In this document: positions 6,763 to 28,279 of the stretch, in pieces
Layout of the letters: each line of letters starts with the position of its first letter
Position numbering within the stretch: position 1 is the first letter of the stretch
From: Elusimicrobiota bacterium
GTDB taxonomy: Bacteria; Elusimicrobiota; Elusimicrobia; UBA1565
Assembly: GCA_002401485.1 (NCBI GenBank)
Contig: NVTF01000063.1
Location: 1 to 45,942, forward strand
DNA length: 45,942 nt
Direction: 5' to 3'
The notes under the pieces: model-generated
Database searches by the model: none
What the model was told of the DNA's origin: nothing
The model's input: only the letters and a program-made list of their open reading frames with translations
Made by a program: the position numbers and the translations under genes

Positions 6763-7587
6763 AGGAGCGTAGAGGCGAAATAGGAAGGGTAGTTTTGAAA
6801 GCAGGTGGCGGCGGTATCGGCGGTAGCGGCTTAGAACAAGCTTCATCCGCGCCACTTCCCCAAAAGCCTTTTTGATCGCCGCATCGGCGGTTTCGCGGTC
6901 TGCGGGTTTATCTTGAAATTCGCTTAAGTCCGCAGCGGGGCCGTAATACAGATAAATGGTGTTGAAGACGCGCGGCCAAAAGTGGCCGATGGGCAGGGTG
7001 CGGTCCATGCCGTCCATACAAACCGGAATGGCCCGTGATTTGTTCTTGAGCATCACATAACCGATGCCGGAACGCGGCTTGAGCAGGCGGCCGTCGCGCG
7101 AGCGTGTGCCTTCCGGGAAAACAATCATGATGCCGTTCTTAAGGCAGGACTGCATGCGCTTCATCGCAGAAAAATCTTTGCGGCCCTTTTTGACGGGGAT
7201 GCACTTCCAGTTGTCCGCGAAGAATCGCATGATCGGATTTCCAAAGAAATTTTCGTGCGCGGCGGGCAGCCAGGGCAGCAGCATGGGTTTGATGAGGCTT
7301 TTGGGAAAAAACACCGAACCGCCAACCAGAAAGCCGTCGATCATCGATTGGTGATTCGGCAGCAGCACCGTGTTGGGTTCTTCGGGGACATTCTCCCGGC
7401 CGATTACAATTGTGCGGTTGAAGATCTCAAAGAAGCACATCGCGATGAACGCGCTGAAATTGGTAATCGCCCACCGGGTGAAGGGCCAGAAGAAATGAAA
7501 GACGGGTCCGCGTCGTTCGATCCGCTCGTGATCGATCCCTGCTTTTGAAGGTTCGGTTTCCGGTTTTTCAGCGAGGGCTTCGTTCAC
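6760..7587 (-). CDS. 1-acyl-sn-glycerol-3-phosphate acyltransferase (PlsC family)
   Basis: Acyltransferase motifs NHQSMIDGF and FPEGTRSRDG. GTG start at 7587 overlaps the upstream TGA (GTGA), so the 7647 start in the track is probably too long. Confidence 0.85.
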   Translation of the reverse strand: MNEALAEKPETEPSKAGIDHERIERRGPVFHFFWPFTRWAITNFSAFIAMCFFEIFNRTIVIGRENVPEEPNTVLLPNHQSMIDGFLVGGSVFFPKSLIKPMLLPWLPAAHENFFGNPIMRFFADNWKCIPVKKGRKDFSAMKRMQSCLKNGIMIVFPEGTRSRDGRLLKPRSGIGYVMLKNKSRAIPVCMDGMDRTLPIGHFWPRVFNTIYLYYGPAADLSEFQDKPADRETADAAIKKAFGEVARMKLVLSRYRRYRRHLLSKLPFLFRLYAP

Positions 7588-8981
7588 GCAGCTACAATCT
7601 CTGCAGCCATTGTGGGGTCGGGTTTGCCTTGGTCTTGCCGGGTCCACCCCTTGTCTTCGTCGTACATTTTGGCAAGCTCGTCATCATAGAAGAACTTGTC
7701 TTCGCCAAAGGCCGGTTTTAAGTCTGTCAGCCACGAGGCTTTTTCGTCGTATTCCGCGAAGAATGGCCGGCCGACCCAATCCGGGTTGCGCGCTTGGAAG
7801 AAATTAAGAACAAAAACTTTCTCGCCTTTGATTTCGGCGACGCCGGTGACTTGAACCTTTCCGGGAGACGCCGACATGGATGGGCCGCGAACGGTTCGTG
7901 CGAGCCCCGACACCTGTTTGTAGGCATCCCGGAAAATCTCCCAGGACCGGACCAAGGGGACCTCGAAGAAGCGTTGGGCGCCGGTATCGCGCGCGACAAA
8001 CATGTAGTAGGGGACCATGCCCATGTTCACCTGCTGCTTCCACATGGTCGACCAAACCTTCGCGGAATCGTTGATGCCTTTCATGATCGGCGATTGGCAC
8101 CTAATTTGGGCCCCGGTTGCTCGAATATTCTCGATGGCGATGGCAACTTCCGGCGTCGACATTTCGACATGGTGGTTGAAGTGGGACATGATCGAGACAT
8201 GTTTGCCGGCATCGGCTATTTTTTTGAACAGATCGAGCATTTCCTGAGCGTCATCGTCGGTGACGAAGCGCTGCGGCCAATATTGGAGCGCCTTGGTTCC
8301 GATGCGAATGGTCTGGAGGCTGGGAACCTTGAGCAGCACATCCACGTAGACCTTAAAAAAGCGCGTCTTCATGATCATCGGGTCGCCGCCCGTAAAGAGA
8401 ACATCGGTCGTATAGGGATGTTCTTTCAGGTAAGCCGCCAATTGCTCGGCTTCCTGGGTCGCGAATTTGAGTCCTTCCATGCCCACAAACTGCGCCCATC
8501 GAAAACAAAAGGTGCAGTAGGCGTGGCAGGTTTGCCCCTGGGTGGGGAAGAATAAAATCGTCTCGCGGTACTTATGCTGCATTCCATCGAGCTTTTCCTC
8601 GTGGTGCACGGGGAGATTGTGCTGCATCTGGCCTGCAGGGTGGGGGTTGAGGTGTTCACGGATTTCGTTGGCAACCACCTTGATTTCCTTTGGGGAGGCG
8701 CCTGAATCGATCAGTTTTTCCATCTGAGCGAAGTGTTCCGGCTCGAGCATGTCGCGGTGCGGGAAGGTGAGGATGTAAATCGGATCGTTGGGAATGTTGT
8801 CCCAGTTGATGAGTTGGTTCACGCAGTAGGTGTTTGATTTGAAGGGGAGCACGTTGGCGACCACCCGAATGTCCTTTCGGATGCGTTCCGACAGCTGCTG
8901 CACCTGCGGAATCGATTCAAAATTAGAGAGCGTGATGCTCTTATATTTGAGGTCCCGGATTTCCTTATGGTTAGCGCTCAT
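7584..8981 (-). CDS. KamA-family radical SAM protein (lysine 2,3-aminomutase-like)
   Basis: CHAYCTFCFRW (CxxxCxxC), TDVLFTGGDPMIMKTRFFKVYVDVLL; ATG at 8981 (MSANHKEIRDLKYKSITL) preferred over 9026. Confidence 0.9.
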   Translation of the reverse strand: MSANHKEIRDLKYKSITLSNFESIPQVQQLSERIRKDIRVVANVLPFKSNTYCVNQLINWDNIPNDPIYILTFPHRDMLEPEHFAQMEKLIDSGASPKEIKVVANEIREHLNPHPAGQMQHNLPVHHEEKLDGMQHKYRETILFFPTQGQTCHAYCTFCFRWAQFVGMEGLKFATQEAEQLAAYLKEHPYTTDVLFTGGDPMIMKTRFFKVYVDVLLKVPSLQTIRIGTKALQYWPQRFVTDDDAQEMLDLFKKIADAGKHVSIMSHFNHHVEMSTPEVAIAIENIRATGAQIRCQSPIMKGINDSAKVWSTMWKQQVNMGMVPYYMFVARDTGAQRFFEVPLVRSWEIFRDAYKQVSGLARTVRGPSMSASPGKVQVTGVAEIKGEKVFVLNFFQARNPDWVGRPFFAEYDEKASWLTDLKPAFGEDKFFYDDELAKMYDEDKGWTRQDQGKPDPTMAAEIVAA

Positions 8982-10883: not shown

Positions 10884-13800
10884 CTACTGGACCGGAGGCG
10901 CGCTGTCGGCAACTTCCTTGAGTTTTGCAAAGAAGGCGTCTATGGTGCCCGCCACCGGAGTCCACGCGAAAATCGTTGTGCTGCCGGCGAAGAGGTTGCT
11001 GACCTTGCCGTCCCGGTCGATGAGGTCAAAGCGCAGGCTGTCGGCATAGTCGTGAAACGACTCGCGATATCGCTTCAAATAGAAATAGGCGGTGGCCCGC
11101 TGATCATAGGCTTGGGAAAACCCCGGATCCCAGCTGAGTGCGTTTGAAAACGCTGAGAGTGCTGCGCGGTAGTGTTTCCCCTGCATTGCTTTGATGCCGT
11201 CGTTATACCACGAGACCGCCTGGCGCCGCGCCTTTTTTCCGGGATCCCCCGGATGAGCCGACTCCGTTTTCGGTTTCAAGTACAACGCCTCGAACACCGG
11301 TCCCAACGCATCGGGACTTAGCGAGGCGCTGGTCATTTTTGTGTAGAGCAGCCGTAAATTCGTGAATTGACGGGAGCTGAGGACCTGGAGGCGAAGTCCC
11401 TCGTTGAAGTCCTTTTCCACTCCGCCTCTATCATCCATTTGTTTGCGGGTGTACGCGCGCCCAAACCAAGCGGTTGTAGTGGTGGGGTCCAGTTGAAGCA
11501 CGCGACCGAAGTAAATTTCCGCTGCTTTAAAGTTGTTTCGGTCGACGGATTGGCGCGCCCGGTATAAATAAACACTCTTGAGGAATGGTAGATCCGCCGA
11601 CACGGCGGTTTTCTGTTCGCTGCTCAGAGACTCTTCAATCTTTTCCCAGGCTTGTTTCGCTTCGCCCCATGGGTCGATCAGGTAAGCCGCTCGAAGGTTT
11701 GCGGCTCCGCCCAGCGGGTCGCCCTCTTTAATCTTCGCGTTTGCCGTGTTGTGAAAGGATGCGCTGAGATTTTTGAAGGTCACGCGGAGTATCTCGATCT
11801 CTCGTGAAGAATGATTGCGTTCTCTTTTCCAGAGCAGGGACAGGAGTTTCATGTATTCGGCCGAGGCGGATTCGTATTGTCCTGATTCGAAGAGGGCGCC
11901 TGCGAAACGAAATCGGACAAGAGCGTCCTGAGGGCGCAGTGACACGAGCTTTTTATAATGGCGGCTCGCTGCACGGGGGCGTTTCATTTTAAGCGCAAGA
12001 TTTCCCCACAGCCGGTGCCACGGCGAGCCAATGACTTTTCCGAGCAGGCGTGCATTCCATGTATAGGCTTTTTGGTACCACGAGCCCTTGAAGAAGCGCT
12101 GCACGCGCTCTTGGGCGAGGTTCGAGACCGCTGGGATCCATCGTATGGGATTACGGCTTTTTCGCAGGGGCTCCAGGACGAGGTCCTCAAAACGCGCCTC
12201 TATCGTTTGTGGGCTCAGGCTGCGGCCGTGGTCGATCCAAAGATCTTCATATTCAGCAACAAAATCACCCCAGCCTTCATGCAGCATCGATAAGGTGTGT
12301 TTGCGGGCAAAGGGGATGGCGAGTCCTCTAAAGACGCGTGCGCGCATTTCGAAATACCGTGTCCTCACCGGTTCCAGGAGTTTGTCTTTATCACGGATTT
12401 CGGCGCGCTGCCGCCGTTGGGCGTTGGAAGCGCGTTTTTGAAGCCTGCGGAGGGTGCGGCGTGCCTTCCCGCTTCCAACCTCCGGCCCCTCGTTGGAGGC
12501 GGCGAGTGTCAGGACCGCCAGTTCGTCTTCTGTGGCGTTCTTCACGACAAGCTCATCTTGGAGTGAGAGGAAAACACGAGAGCTCCCCGGTTCTCCCTGC
12601 CGGGCAGCACGTCCGCGGTATTGCAGATCGACACGCACGGTCGAGGCTCGACCGGTAAGAATGACGTGCAGGCCGCCGGCCTTCAGGGCTTCTAGTTTTG
12701 GGCGAATGTCCGTCCCGCGTCCGGCGAGCTGCGTTGCCACCGTGATCGCTCCCGGATTGCCCGCCCGGGCGATAATATTTTTTTCGCTTTCGACCTGCGC
12801 TCCGTTGAGCAGGGAATACGCCTGATTCGCTGCGTCCAGCATCTTTGCGATGCGTACCGATTCCCCAAGATCCTTCGCTCCGATCAAAGCGGGCCGACCC
12901 GCCTTGCGGGCTGCAAGCGCGTCCGCAACCACCGCTTCGAGCTTGGCTTCGTACGTTGCAAACAATCTATCGGGCAGGTCTTTGCGGACCGAAGGGCGGT
13001 GGGAGGGAATCCGGATTGTCTGAAGGTCGTAAACCTCGCGAAACTCCGCATCGGCGGTTCCGAGTGTTCCTGTGATTCCGGCGAGTTTCCCGTAGAGGTG
13101 GAGGTACCCGTCCAGCGCGATGTGCGACGAGAGGCGGTGGTCCGAATCAGGTTTGAGGCCTTCCTTCAATTCCACGAACCGATGCAGCCCGCCATCCCAA
13201 TGCCGACCGAACTGCAGTCGTCCGGTATGCGGGTCCAGGATGATGACCGTGTCCTTGAGCACGACGTAATCTTTATTGAGTCGGAGTAGGAATTTAGCCT
13301 TGAGCGCGTTGCGGGCGTACATCTCGAGGTGCTTCCAGTTCTGGAATTGGGAACCGATTCCTTTCAGCATGGCGAGCCGGGATTTGGAGGCCTCGGTCAG
13401 CCGGACCTTGTCGGCCCTTTTGTCTAAAATGAAGTCCTCTCCTTCTTTCCAGTCGGAGACGAGATTGCTCAGGTACTCATACGACACGCCGCCCCGTTTC
13501 GACGCTGAGACGATTCGGTAGTCGCTATTGGCTTCTTCCAGCAGTTCCGCGTCGGCTTCATCAACGATGGCGAAGGATTTTTCGCGCCGTTTCATTTTCC
13601 AGCCCGCGGACTGATCGGCGTCCTGATCGAAGAGGTGGTCGAAAATATAATCGCGGCTCGCGCCGTAGATCAGGTCAGAACCTTCATACGCTTCTTTGCG
13701 CGAGACCCGCGCGAAATTACGCTCGTAGGAGTCCCGCTGACGGGCACCGCCTTTCTGGAAGAGGTAGGCCTCATCGCGGCCTTGCAATACGCCTACCGTC

Positions 13801-15143
13801 ATGCCGAGCATCCGAAACACGCGCCCGATCTCATCGGCGTCGCGCAGGGCGAGATAGGAGTTAAACGTATAAACATCAACGGGCGCCGAGAGGGCGTTGA
13901 GGTAGGCGGCCATCCCAATCGAGAGCGTTTTGCCCTCGCCGGTTTTCTGCTGCAGCACACGTCCCTGATGGATGCCGATAGCGGCCGCGATTTGTTCGAC
14001 GTAGGGCCGTTTCCCAAGTGTGCGCGCCATCACTTCGCGAGCGGCCGCGTAGGCATCGGGCAGGACGTCGCTTAAAGATTCTCCGCGTTTAATGCGCGCG
14101 CGCAATTTGCCCGTCATACGTCCGAGTTCTTCGGAGGTCAGGGCCTTATAGTGTTCTTCTCGCTCCAGTACCGCACGGGTTGCCTGCGACAACGTGATCC
14201 TGTCCTCCTCGGATCCCTTCAGTTTCGCGAGCCGCGCCTCGAGATCGGAATAATCCTGTGCCGGGACAGAGGCACTACGGTTGTCGGCAGCGAGATCAGC
14301 GGCCGAGAGTCCTTGAGGTCGCAGCTGCTCCTTCTTCCACGCCCGCCACGCCTTGCGGATGTTGTATCCGTCCGTGTCTCCCCGTTCTCCGAGCACCTTC
14401 ATTAATGTCCCGCGTGAAGAAGAAAGAGGGATCAGGTTTGTTGCGCCGAAATACAGGTTGAGTCCGGCATAGGCCCAGAGTACACCCTCTGTGAGCAGTT
14501 CCACCGAGCCAAAAACCGCCGTCGCCGCAGCGGCTCCCGCCAAGATGAAGTTGAAGGCCGGACCTGCGGCGGAGATCGTAATTTTAGCCGGATACGAAAG
14601 AGAATCATGGTCTGAAACAAGGACCTTCGAGACGCGCATCTCTGCGGGGCGTTTGGCGAGTCGTGCGGCAAGCCAATGGCCGGTCTCATGGAAAATCGAA
14701 CTTGCCGGAACAATAACGGCTAAAGCGGCGATCGGCGCCCAGATGTTTTGCTCGGCCCCGTCGAAATGAACGCGGGACGCAGTTGTTGGTTTCTTCTTCG
14801 CCGCGCGTTCAACCGTGATGAGACTCTTGCGAACGGCAATCGCGTTCTTATTTCTTCCCGGGGAGCGTGCCGCTGCAGCCTTTTGGGGGGCAGCCGCTCT
14901 CGGCAGTTGTATCGGCGAGAGAGTGGGGAGGGTGGTGCCAGCGGGGCTCAGAGTCGGCAGCGTGGGCGCTAACGTGATGAGTCCGGCAGTAAGTTTTGGG
15001 ATTGCTTGGAAACTTGCAGGTGTTTGCAGGCTTGCGCGCGGCTGCATGACAATCCGTCGCGCGGCCGCCGAGCTCGGGGTTAATAGGGCGCAAATGAGCA
15101 GCCCCGCTATGAATTTATTCAATCCCGGAAAAGATTTTCCCAC
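10884..15143 (-). CDS. Giant fusion: exported leader, M50 (site-2-protease-like) metalloprotease, SecA-like DEAD ATPase, TPR
   Basis: HETGH zinc motif in SSIFHETGHWLAARLA with NLIPLSSSRGTLMKVLGERGDTDGY. SecA motifs: LQQKTGEGKTLS (Walker A), AIVDEADAELL (DEAD), VATQLAGRGTDI, QYRGRAARQGEPGSSRVFLSLQDEL. C-terminal TPRs (RQAVSWYNDGIKAMQGKHYRAALSAFSNALSWDP). Confidence 0.93.
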   Translation of the reverse strand: MGKSFPGLNKFIAGLLICALLTPSSAAARRIVMQPRASLQTPASFQAIPKLTAGLITLAPTLPTLSPAGTTLPTLSPIQLPRAAAPQKAAAARSPGRNKNAIAVRKSLITVERAAKKKPTTASRVHFDGAEQNIWAPIAALAVIVPASSIFHETGHWLAARLAKRPAEMRVSKVLVSDHDSLSYPAKITISAAGPAFNFILAGAAAATAVFGSVELLTEGVLWAYAGLNLYFGATNLIPLSSSRGTLMKVLGERGDTDGYNIRKAWRAWKKEQLRPQGLSAADLAADNRSASVPAQDYSDLEARLAKLKGSEEDRITLSQATRAVLEREEHYKALTSEELGRMTGKLRARIKRGESLSDVLPDAYAAAREVMARTLGKRPYVEQIAAAIGIHQGRVLQQKTGEGKTLSIGMAAYLNALSAPVDVYTFNSYLALRDADEIGRVFRMLGMTVGVLQGRDEAYLFQKGGARQRDSYERNFARVSRKEAYEGSDLIYGASRDYIFDHLFDQDADQSAGWKMKRREKSFAIVDEADAELLEEANSDYRIVSASKRGGVSYEYLSNLVSDWKEGEDFILDKRADKVRLTEASKSRLAMLKGIGSQFQNWKHLEMYARNALKAKFLLRLNKDYVVLKDTVIILDPHTGRLQFGRHWDGGLHRFVELKEGLKPDSDHRLSSHIALDGYLHLYGKLAGITGTLGTADAEFREVYDLQTIRIPSHRPSVRKDLPDRLFATYEAKLEAVVADALAARKAGRPALIGAKDLGESVRIAKMLDAANQAYSLLNGAQVESEKNIIARAGNPGAITVATQLAGRGTDIRPKLEALKAGGLHVILTGRASTVRVDLQYRGRAARQGEPGSSRVFLSLQDELVVKNATEDELAVLTLAASNEGPEVGSGKARRTLRRLQKRASNAQRRQRAEIRDKDKLLEPVRTRYFEMRARVFRGLAIPFARKHTLSMLHEGWGDFVAEYEDLWIDHGRSLSPQTIEARFEDLVLEPLRKSRNPIRWIPAVSNLAQERVQRFFKGSWYQKAYTWNARLLGKVIGSPWHRLWGNLALKMKRPRAASRHYKKLVSLRPQDALVRFRFAGALFESGQYESASAEYMKLLSLLWKRERNHSSREIEILRVTFKNLSASFHNTANAKIKEGDPLGGAANLRAAYLIDPWGEAKQAWEKIEESLSSEQKTAVSADLPFLKSVYLYRARQSVDRNNFKAAEIYFGRVLQLDPTTTTAWFGRAYTRKQMDDRGGVEKDFNEGLRLQVLSSRQFTNLRLLYTKMTSASLSPDALGPVFEALYLKPKTESAHPGDPGKKARRQAVSWYNDGIKAMQGKHYRAALSAFSNALSWDPGFSQAYDQRATAYFYLKRYRESFHDYADSLRFDLIDRDGKVSNLFAGSTTIFAWTPVAGTIDAFFAKLKEVADSAPPVQ

Positions 15144-25759: not shown

Positions 25760-28279
25760 CTAATTGCTGGAGGGATCGCGCGGTTGGCGCAGGTCGAGGT
25801 AGGCGAAGTAGGTGCGGAGGTAGAGCTTCCAGAACTCCGCGAACAGGCGCCCGCCTATTCTTTTCCATGCGGGCATCACCGCCTCACGATCGGAAGGCGG
25901 GGGGGAAGCAAGGTGCAGCGCAACGCCGGGTTCATCCGAGAACACGAGATAACCTTCCGCGTGAGTGCGCTCCATCAGTCGGCGGACGGGAGGTACCGCG
26001 TATTTGAACGGTCCTAGAGGGGACTTGTGGAACTCGGTCAGTCGCCATCCTTCTTCGACTGTTTCAATAAATAGTTTTAGAGATGTTTTAGAACCGTCTC
26101 GTGTGACGACCATATAGTCGAGATCACTGCTTGGTCCGGGCGTGCCCGTTGCGTAGCTTCCGAGCAGAACAACCGCAACAACTTCCTTTTCGTACGCGAC
26201 CTGTTTGTTCGTTGCTTTGATCGCGTGGAGAACGACGGACCGGAACGTTTGCTGGACCTTGGTGGTCATCGTACGTCCGTATTTAAGTTTTGCATCGACC
26301 GCATCGTCATCCAGCATCGCGTCGATATGAGCGATGAGATGCGTGGCCTCGATGCGCGGGGTATCGTAGAAAACTTGAAATATTTGTTTGCGGAAATAAC
26401 TGGGCCGACCGGAGGGTGCGACGCGCTTGACACGCGCGATGTAGCGCACAAACGCCGCGCGCGACGCGGGGTCCTGAGGATAATAACGGTCCCAAATCCG
26501 GAGGGCGGCTTCTTCCACCGCGCGGCGGTCCGAGACCTGAGGGCCGAGGGGCCGCATCAAGCCGGTGTAGGCTTCGGCGCGCCAATGAAGCATGAGTCCG
26601 GTAAGATCGGTGACCGACGGGGTGGTTAACGCGTCGTTTTCTTTCTGCCACTTAGCGATTTTGGTGCGAAGGCCGCTGGCACGATGTCCGAAGAAGAAAT
26701 TGATCGACTCTAATTGCAGGGAGTGATATCTCCACGATGCGCGCATATTGTTTGCAATCCAATATTTGAAGTCCCACCATAGGAATGATACGCGAGCGGC
26801 GGTGCGGAAGGACAATTCAAACAAACGTGCATAGAGATCGTGGGCCGCGCCTGACCAGCGATCGGCGGAGCGATTCGCGGTCAGCGCTTTTTCCACCCCC
26901 GCATAGGGACTTAAGACGCGGTACGGCATGTTGCCGGGTTTTTCATAAACCTTGAAAATAAGTCCTGCGTGGCTGGGCAGGGCGTATTGAAACGCACCCA
27001 GCTCTTCGGTGCGGCCCATTTTTTCCCAGATCTCGGCGAGGCGTTCAACGAATCGCGCGCGCGAAGATTGGGCGCCGTCTTCAGAGATGACGTGAAAGTC
27101 CATATCCGAATCCGACCGGGCGGTGCGCGTCACGTAGCTGCCCAGCAGGGAGATCCCGATCAGGCGTTTGCCGGGAGCCAGGGTTGTATTAATTTCAGTC
27201 ACGGCTCGAGACACCGCGATTTTGAGGGTTTTGATCATTTTCTTTTGCTCGCGAAACGAAAGTAAATGACTGCCTTGACCTTGCAATCTCCACCGGCGTT
27301 CATCGAAGAAGTCCGCGAGTTCCGCGTTTGGCACCGTCGAGGCGTCCTGCAATATGCCAAACAGAGCTTTTTTGAGCTGGCTGGGTATTTTTGCTCGCGG
27401 CGAAGCCAGTGCGACGAGGACATAGTCCTTCCAGGCTTGCTGGGTGAGGGCGTCGACATCGAAAAATTTATTAAAAAGAGCGTTGGAGTCGTTTACCAAT
27501 GCCTCTCGATTGAGTATGTCGAGTCCCAAAGGGTAGATGCGGCCCGCCAGTCCTTTTGTTCGCGCCTCAATATAGAGGCCTGTTTGATTTTCTACGGCGC
27601 TGGGTGTTGCGCGTACGGCGTCTCGAGCGTCTTGGAGGATCTGGTACTGCTTGCGTAGCCGGTTTCCAAGGTAAAAGTTCGCGACTGAGAGCTGGAGCTT
27701 CTTGTACCTGAGATAGGATCGAAACCGTTTTTTATCCGCGGGCACGATGCGGATCGGTTCGCTGTCCTGTCGCTTAGGAGTGTTGTCCCATAACGTGTTA
27801 GGAGCATCCTCTTGGGAGAAAATTTCGAGCTGGTGGCGTGCGCTCCGCCGTTTGCGGCCTTCCGGGGAATTTTCAGAGAGTGTGGCGGGAAGATCATCAT
27901 CGGCGGCATTAAGGGCATGGCCCGACACGCGCGCGAGTTTTTTCTGGCCACGGTGAATCTCTTGAGCGGCTTCGTTCACGGTGGCAGGGGCTGCTGGAGC
28001 GAAACGTTGAATTGCCAGCGCAGCGGATGAGCTCTCCGGCAGCGGCAGGGTTTCGCCTAAGACCGGCAGGGTTCCTAAAAGGGAAGGAGCCTGAGTGAGG
28101 GCTCCTTGAAAATTGTCGGCAACGGAAAGGGTGAGGGGATTGATTCCTGAAACAGGGGAACCGGAAGCGACGCTCCGATTAGCGGGCCCCCGGGTCATAC
28201 CGGGATTGGCGAAAATCGGCGGCGGAGATACGATTAGGAGGGCGATAAAACAACTCGCTACTCTTTGCATCGACTTCAT
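25760..28279 (-). CDS. Exported protein with two nucleotidyltransferase-fold domains (internal duplication)
   Basis: N-terminus MKSMQRVASCFIALLIVSPPPIFANPG. Two GSx10DxD motifs: LIGISLLGSYVTRTARSDSDMDFHVI and VVAVVLLGSYATGTPGPSSDLDYMVV, each preceded by similar helical segments. Confidence 0.8.
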   Translation of the reverse strand: MKSMQRVASCFIALLIVSPPPIFANPGMTRGPANRSVASGSPVSGINPLTLSVADNFQGALTQAPSLLGTLPVLGETLPLPESSSAALAIQRFAPAAPATVNEAAQEIHRGQKKLARVSGHALNAADDDLPATLSENSPEGRKRRSARHQLEIFSQEDAPNTLWDNTPKRQDSEPIRIVPADKKRFRSYLRYKKLQLSVANFYLGNRLRKQYQILQDARDAVRATPSAVENQTGLYIEARTKGLAGRIYPLGLDILNREALVNDSNALFNKFFDVDALTQQAWKDYVLVALASPRAKIPSQLKKALFGILQDASTVPNAELADFFDERRWRLQGQGSHLLSFREQKKMIKTLKIAVSRAVTEINTTLAPGKRLIGISLLGSYVTRTARSDSDMDFHVISEDGAQSSRARFVERLAEIWEKMGRTEELGAFQYALPSHAGLIFKVYEKPGNMPYRVLSPYAGVEKALTANRSADRWSGAAHDLYARLFELSFRTAARVSFLWWDFKYWIANNMRASWRYHSLQLESINFFFGHRASGLRTKIAKWQKENDALTTPSVTDLTGLMLHWRAEAYTGLMRPLGPQVSDRRAVEEAALRIWDRYYPQDPASRAAFVRYIARVKRVAPSGRPSYFRKQIFQVFYDTPRIEATHLIAHIDAMLDDDAVDAKLKYGRTMTTKVQQTFRSVVLHAIKATNKQVAYEKEVVAVVLLGSYATGTPGPSSDLDYMVVTRDGSKTSLKLFIETVEEGWRLTEFHKSPLGPFKYAVPPVRRLMERTHAEGYLVFSDEPGVALHLASPPPSDREAVMPAWKRIGGRLFAEFWKLYLRTYFAYLDLRQPRDPSSN

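Follow-up and report, generated by a model that had tools for sequence, protein, structure and literature searches.

A 1419-residue Elusimicrobiota protein that joins a site-2-protease-like module to a SecA-type motor: a candidate motor-coupled intramembrane protease

What could a single polypeptide do that carries both a protease-like membrane module and a motor of the SecA type? The question is raised by a stretch of DNA of 45,942 nucleotides (the window; contig NVTF01000063.1 of GenBank assembly GCA_002401485.1), which comes from an Elusimicrobiota metagenome-assembled genome (MAG) of 2.9 Mb and 78% completeness, and in which a reading made from the letters only had placed an uninterrupted frame of 1419 amino acids (aa) at positions 10884-15143. 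That single open frame is present exactly there, with a GTG start, on the minus strand (15143→10884), which the sequence-only reading had left unstated; a plus-strand reading of the same positions was discarded for its many stops. All of the motifs quoted earlier (HETGH, GDTDGY, KTGEGKT, DEAD, GRGTDI and QYRGRAARQG) occur in the encoded protein, P0001, and the leader and tetratricopeptide repeats (TPRs) proposed for it are supported by a hydropathy peak at residues 10-28 and by Pfam TPR matches, respectively (Table 1). Our preferred answer, to which we give a probability of roughly 0.45, is that P0001 would be a membrane-tethered, motor-coupled intramembrane protease.

An M50 domain had been claimed for P0001, and the search proposed with the Peptidase_M50 model does return a match (4.7e-6, 26.5 bits), although for P0001 alone it falls just below the curated Pfam cut-off of 27.2. 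Homology to M50 is nonetheless supported, because Pfam M50 matches are found in all three orthologs described below (best 7.9e-7) and because a profile of the three orthologous modules, searched against PDB sequences, matches the structure of the site-2 protease (S2P) mjS2P (3b4r; 4.7e-5) over the core helices. The zinc motif, which ends a hydrophobic segment, reads HETGH, HEFGH or HELGH, and none of the 12 motif residues (HExGH, AGPxxN, NxxP, DG) varies among the three orthologs, at identities of 43-49% (hypergeometric chance 9e-8, with 61 invariant sites among 220 in all). The N, P, D and G of the third-ligand motif are among them, yet the D lies 17-22 residues past the N instead of at the usual short spacing. 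This unusual DG spacing and the sub-cut-off Pfam score would suit a module that is a dead membrane anchor, with the SecA motor alone mattering, a reading that the invariance of all 12 catalytic-motif residues makes very unlikely.

A complete ortholog, 48% identical to P0001, is present in the same family (MGTY01000033.1, Elusimicrobia bacterium GWA2_69_24), and a third copy, which a contig end cuts after the region of the preprotein cross-linking domain (PPXD), in a different family of the same order (JAHFCD010000013.1, Elusimicrobia isolate nzgw213). Both loci came from a SecA-profile scan; an earlier M50-profile scan of contigs gave nothing confirmed by tblastn. The fusion is confined to three of 341 genomes of the phylum Elusimicrobiota, in two families, with the carriers scoring 919, 905 and 564 bits with a motor profile (next best 304) and 392, 382 and 336 bits with an M50 module profile (next best 35), and no further fusion was found in 84,980 species genomes by a pattern-seeded scan with the motor profile, which can miss distant relatives. 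Compared with the ortholog in genome G003, the motor is 62% identical, the M50 module 48%, the TPR part 37% and leader plus linker 16%, which makes the motor core the best-conserved part of the protein. Because three MAGs conserve the fusion with its M50 and ATPase motif residues intact, we judge it to be a working gene and not a relic, as had been thought probable; a pseudogene or assembly artefact was discarded on the same grounds. A viral origin was discarded after two empty scans of viral contigs and a plasmid origin on finding that plasmid tblastn matches span the SecA part only, and PADLOC gave no match that would point to a defence system. No description of an M50-SecA fusion or of an M50/SecA-like operon pair was found in the open-access papers searched.

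A search of PDB sequences with P0001 returned SecA chains at 1e-100. The check suggested for a separate housekeeping secA found one in the same genome (919 aa, G000:C5), so the objection that the fusion might be the only SecA of its genome falls away, and hhalign aligns P0001 with a housekeeping SecA up to about residue 940 (probability 97, E 1e-10). The two nucleotide-binding domains (NBD1 and NBD2) and the PPXD are present with every ATPase motif, and K108, E210, D212, R509, D512, R566, Q570 and R577 (E. coli SecA numbering) are retained, the last five as R809, D812, R837, Q841 and R848 of P0001. The 'full set of SecA-like motifs' read from the sequence therefore stands for the ATPase core, but not beyond it: in alignments to SecA neither the helical wing nor the two-helix-finger signature RGYAQKDPxxEYK with its fingertip Tyr (Y794 of E. 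coli) could be recognised in P0001, and the SEC-C tail was not found, the TPRs standing at the C-terminus instead. The best score with the NCBIfam SecA equivalog models is 470.8 bits, below their cut-offs of 725-1493. Since wing, finger signature, fingertip Tyr and SEC-C tail are unrecognised, the P0001 motor is, by sequence, a SecA-type motor and not a canonical SecA. A low-confidence AlphaFold model has helices at residues 943-970 and 977-994, and a divergent two-helix finger may lie within residues 941-1000. In trees, the motors of the fusions group in a single long-branch clade.

In SecA, the two-helix finger enters SecY and the clamp grips the substrate as a beta strand (PMC6599042), and the helical wing contacts SecY (PMC7503281). 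An accessory SecA that continues to power SecYEG on behalf of a particular set of exported proteins, with the built-in M50 module removing or degrading signal or anchor segments in passing, would accord with the conserved PPXD and NBD1/2, with the many SecA2 proteins that have a shortened helical wing and no C-terminal tail (PMC7503281), and with RseP, which is known to rid the membrane of signal peptides (PMC8144685). We think this unlikely, given the absence of the canonical finger and its Tyr, the failure of residues 941-1042 to align with SecA, and the distribution of extra SecY genes, which are restricted to genus g1 (G000 and G001) and occur in neither of the other two carriers; a dedicated partner SecY was discarded for the same reason. 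The earlier suggestion of a protease coupled to translocation through SecYEG is thus unsupported, because the parts that contact SecY or push into it are unrecognised and extra SecY is limited to one genus, whereas the machine for extracting membrane proteins suggested beside it fits better and is backed by the M50-ClpA/B fusions and M50/SecA-like gene pairs described below, its activity being predicted from motifs.

If P0001 is a motor-coupled intramembrane protease, its leader would export the N-terminus and about three M50 helices, placed by hydropathy, would cross the inner membrane, the HETGH helix running from outside to inside as in known S2Ps. Given this usual orientation, the leader and the three helices, the SecA-type motor and TPRs would lie in the cytosol, where ATP is; group III S2Ps likewise bear a C-terminal cytosolic CBS domain, cytosolic in SpoIVFB (PMC11486902). 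The TPRs would bring in a client or adaptor, and the clamp of NBD1, PPXD and NBD2, whose ATPase residues and PPXD are present, would hold the client stretched out as a strand and use ATP to move it relative to the membrane, not mainly into SecYEG, so that a segment might be fed to, or extracted at, the M50 site. There the predicted protease would cut the client in a signal/anchor or transmembrane segment and so clear or release it. SpoIVFB captures the substrate by beta-strand addition (PMC11486902), and a hand-over from the SecA clamp strand to such an S2P added strand is plausible. The group III architecture, in which a C-terminal cytosolic domain follows the membrane core (PMC11486902), would also match a SecA part that acts as a nucleotide- and client-sensing switch and gates the protease without threading, as is thought for CBS in SpoIVFB-type S2Ps, but the hydrolysis residues, the motif VI arginines and the motor identity of 62% go beyond the needs of a sensor, and the M50 partner in sister genomes is an unrelated full unfoldase, which makes a switch decidedly unlikely.

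Several observations weigh against a motor-coupled protease. The third zinc ligand stands on a longer loop than is usual in an S2P, the third M50 helix is below the hydropathy threshold, and residues 29-133, ahead of the first M50 helix, are net positive in P0001 (16 K+R vs 3 D+E), so that export of this segment is not favoured. AlphaFold runs on M50 plus SecA and on M50 alone, from three-sequence alignments, were unusable (mean predicted local distance difference test 44 and 45). With no two-helix finger identified, threading by the P0001 motor is something that we infer. The loci of the three orthologs have no neighbours in common and no conserved operon, so no client is suggested.

Other pairings of M50 proteins with motors bear on the same question. 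In sister genomes of the same family (G001, G002, G005, G007) a leader, linker and M50 module share one chain with a double AAA+ unfoldase of the ClpA/B type. Within the family, fusions of the SecA and Clp types show no significant tendency to exclude each other (P = 0.21). On alphaproteobacterial plasmids (Methylosinus, Mesorhizobium, Pseudosulfitobacter and Alisedimentitalea) a PqqD-M50-HlyD gene adjoins a truncated SecA-like gene, whose product (638-660 aa) has neither wing nor finger, in an operon that also encodes a giant adhesin and HlyD proteins and, in many cases, TolC and DUF3467. One gene separates the two at a second Pseudosulfitobacter locus, Thalassospira has the adhesin locus with no SecA-like gene, and in a similar set in Elusimicrobiota genome G004 the M50-HlyD gene is on the opposite strand and is separated from the SecA-like gene by one HlyD gene. 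Annotations of the operonic SecA-like gene vary: it is called prepilin peptidase, translocase, DEAD/DEAH helicase or SecA. Such an operon, set out as giant adhesin, DUF3467, HlyD, PqqD-M50-HlyD, truncated SecA-like ATPase, HlyD and TolC, is possibly a tripartite secretion system in which an M50/SecA-like pair is the engine instead of an ABC transporter.

P0001 might itself be a fused version of this pair, which apparently serves HlyD-TolC secretion of giant adhesins. The order adhesin, HlyD, M50-HlyD, SecA-like is conserved on the plasmids, with the similar set in G004, and the trees, with support of 66/46 for a joint clade with the operonic SecA-like proteins, neither show nor reject that the P0001 motor derives from them. 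The window has no recognised HlyD, TolC or adhesin gene, however, the orthologs have no common neighbours, and the P0001 M50 module is little like the operonic M50 (hhalign probability 56, against 97 for an Elusimicrobiota leader-M50 type), so we consider a fused adhesin-secretion pair markedly improbable. Because the P0001 M50 is not of the operonic type, M50 proteins and motors appear to have been paired on more than one occasion, and by analogy these independent pairings, the M50-ClpA/B fusions and the M50/SecA-like gene pairs, lend support to P0001 as a motor-coupled protease. A wider proposal, in our estimate somewhat unlikely, is that ATP-driven intramembrane proteases form a new class, in which S2P modules and threading motors were brought into one chain more than once (SecA-type, ClpA/B-type) and the active site within the membrane has membrane proteins fed or pulled through it by the motor.

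With group III S2Ps (SpoIVFB, mjS2P; Peptidase_M50), P0001 shares HExxH, AGPxxN, N..P..DG and a membrane core followed by a domain predicted to be cytosolic, but its core appears to have about three helices, its DG is on a longer loop, and a SecA-type motor and TPRs replace CBS. It resembles SecA and SecA2 in NBD1, PPXD, NBD2, every ATPase motif and the start of the helical scaffold, and departs from them in having no recognisable helical wing, canonical finger or SEC-C tail, in its probable anchoring by the M50 module, its extra TPRs and its own long-branch clade. The M50-HlyD/SecA-like pair (Methylosinus, Pseudosulfitobacter and others) likewise joins an M50 protease with a C-terminally truncated SecA-like ATPase, but as separate genes, with another M50 subfamily and in an HlyD/TolC adhesin locus. 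The leader-M50-ClpA/B fusions (L109, L110) have leader, linker, M50 and then an unfoldase-type motor, but this motor is AAA+, the M50 is an ordinary one (HExxH...NLLPxxxLDG) and the genomes are others. In its way of working P0001 may be compared with FtsH (AAA+ M41), which has membrane segments, an ATP motor and a zinc protease in one polypeptide, although the motor and protease families are unrelated and the P0001 active site would lie in the membrane. Site-2 proteases are not known to use an ATP motor; if its parts cooperate, P0001 would act as a protease that uses ATP to pull on substrates within the membrane. A natural fusion of an S2P-like module with a translocase-type motor would offer a way to test if cleavage within the membrane can be powered and if a SecA-type motor can work beyond pushing proteins through SecY, and the recurrent M50-motor pairing suggests a function for the uncharacterised M50/SecA-like gene pairs beside alphaproteobacterial giant adhesins.

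Table 1. Features of P0001 in the window and related loci
Feature	Position	Strand	Details
Whole gene	10884..15143	-	1419 aa; signal-peptide-like leader, linker, M50, short linker, SecA-type motor (residues 312-940), TPR
Signal-peptide-like leader, residues 1-30, KFIAGLLICALLTPSSAAAR	15054..15143	-	hydropathy peak 10-28; leaders at same place in both orthologs
Low-complexity Ala/Pro/Leu-rich linker, residues 31-120, weakly conserved	14784..15053	-	leader plus linker 16% identical to G003 ortholog
Minimal M50 / site-2-protease-like membrane module, residues 121-262, ~3 hydrophobic helices	14358..14783	-	Pfam M50 and mjS2P profile match
HETGH, residues 152-156, zinc ligands and catalytic Glu (putative)	14676..14690	-	invariant in 3 orthologs
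AGPAFN, residues 193-198, M50 core motif	14550..14567	-	A, G, P, N invariant
NLIP, residues 236-239, first half of third-ligand motif	14427..14438	-	N, P invariant
TDG, residues 257-259, probable third zinc ligand Asp258	14367..14375	-	D258 and G259 invariant; loop longer than canonical S2P
SecA_DEAD (NBD1 and inserted PPXD), residues 312-702	13038..14210	-	Pfam 1.4e-59
TGEGKT (within KTGEGKT), residues 401-406, Walker A	13926..13943	-	aligns with E. coli SecA K108
DEAD, residues 528-531, Walker B	13551..13562	-	aligns with E. coli SecA DEVD box, E210 and D212
SecA_PP_bind (preprotein cross-linking domain, PF01043), residues 555-658	13170..13481	-	Pfam 4.6e-18
NBD2 / P-loop_SecA, residues 717-865	12549..12995	-	Pfam 4.1e-39, best stretch 717-814
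GRGTDI, residues 808-813, motif V	12705..12722	-	alignment to E. coli SecA
QYRGRAARQG, residues 841-850, motif VI, arginines retained	12594..12623	-	alignment to E. coli SecA
Helical scaffold domain start, residues 866-940	12324..12548	-	hhalign to housekeeping SecA
Helical stretch replacing helical wing and canonical two-helix finger, residues 941-1042	12018..12323	-	not alignable to SecA
TPR repeats, residues 1043-1373	11025..12017	-	several Pfam TPR models, 7e-12
M50-ClpA/B fusion, G005	L109:1795-9753		2653-aa frame
M50-ClpA/B fusion, G002	L110:614-9451		2946-aa frame
M50-ClpA/B fusion, G001	L094:1965-5570		contig end cuts gene; M50 match 9e-7
Leader-M50-subtilase loci	L091:2895-6059 (G000:C183), L092:2946-6254, L093:3513-6752, L111:1163-4882, L112, L113		
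Adhesin / PqqD-M50-HlyD / SecA-like operons	L116-L119, L121 (alphaproteobacterial plasmids), L029 (G004)		

Two giant leader-bearing proteins have an HExGH multi-helix module followed, about 1000 residues on, by a SecA-like motor (TGEGKS): a 4433-aa frame in G063 (L080:5998-19296) and a 5255-aa frame in G064 (L081:2161-17925). A special relationship of their motors to that of P0001 is suggested by trees (97/97 and 100/98) in which long branches meet; rare residues common to these motors and P0001 show no clear excess over a control, and no similarity between their HExGH module and the P0001 M50 could be detected. A second complete SecA, with the two-helix finger present, follows a signal-peptide-like leader and linker with no obvious membrane module in G001 (L027:4684-8139) and G005 (L028:4733-8062), and looks exported.

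The genome that bears the fusion has other M50 genes as well. Leader, linker, M50 module and a subtilase (S8) occur in one chain in G000, G001, G003 and G004, and the layout can also be read in G006 and, cut short, in G053; site-1-protease-like and site-2-protease-like enzymes are here fused in a single chain, and thioredoxin and response-regulator genes adjoin it in G000, G001 and G003. One more fusion (L095:2744-5194, G001:C50) joins an M50-like module to an enolase in which the order of the C- and N-terminal domains is swapped.

Among the extra SecY genes, a divergent second SecY is followed by a leader-bearing phospholipase D and a leader-bearing adenylate kinase (L088:7506-11828, G000:C53) and is syntenic in the sister genome G001 (L090 near 7230-8400, G001:C72), and a third (L089:7890-9215, G000:C21) lies near a leader-bearing ABC exporter (L089:3427-6324). 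The extra SecY genes and leader-bearing enzymes are hints of ATP-using proteins sent outside the cytosol. A further leader-bearing enzyme that uses nucleotides is encoded within the window, on the minus strand at 25760-28279; its 839 aa comprise a signal-peptide-like leader and two nucleotidyltransferase domains (Pfam NTP_transf_2).

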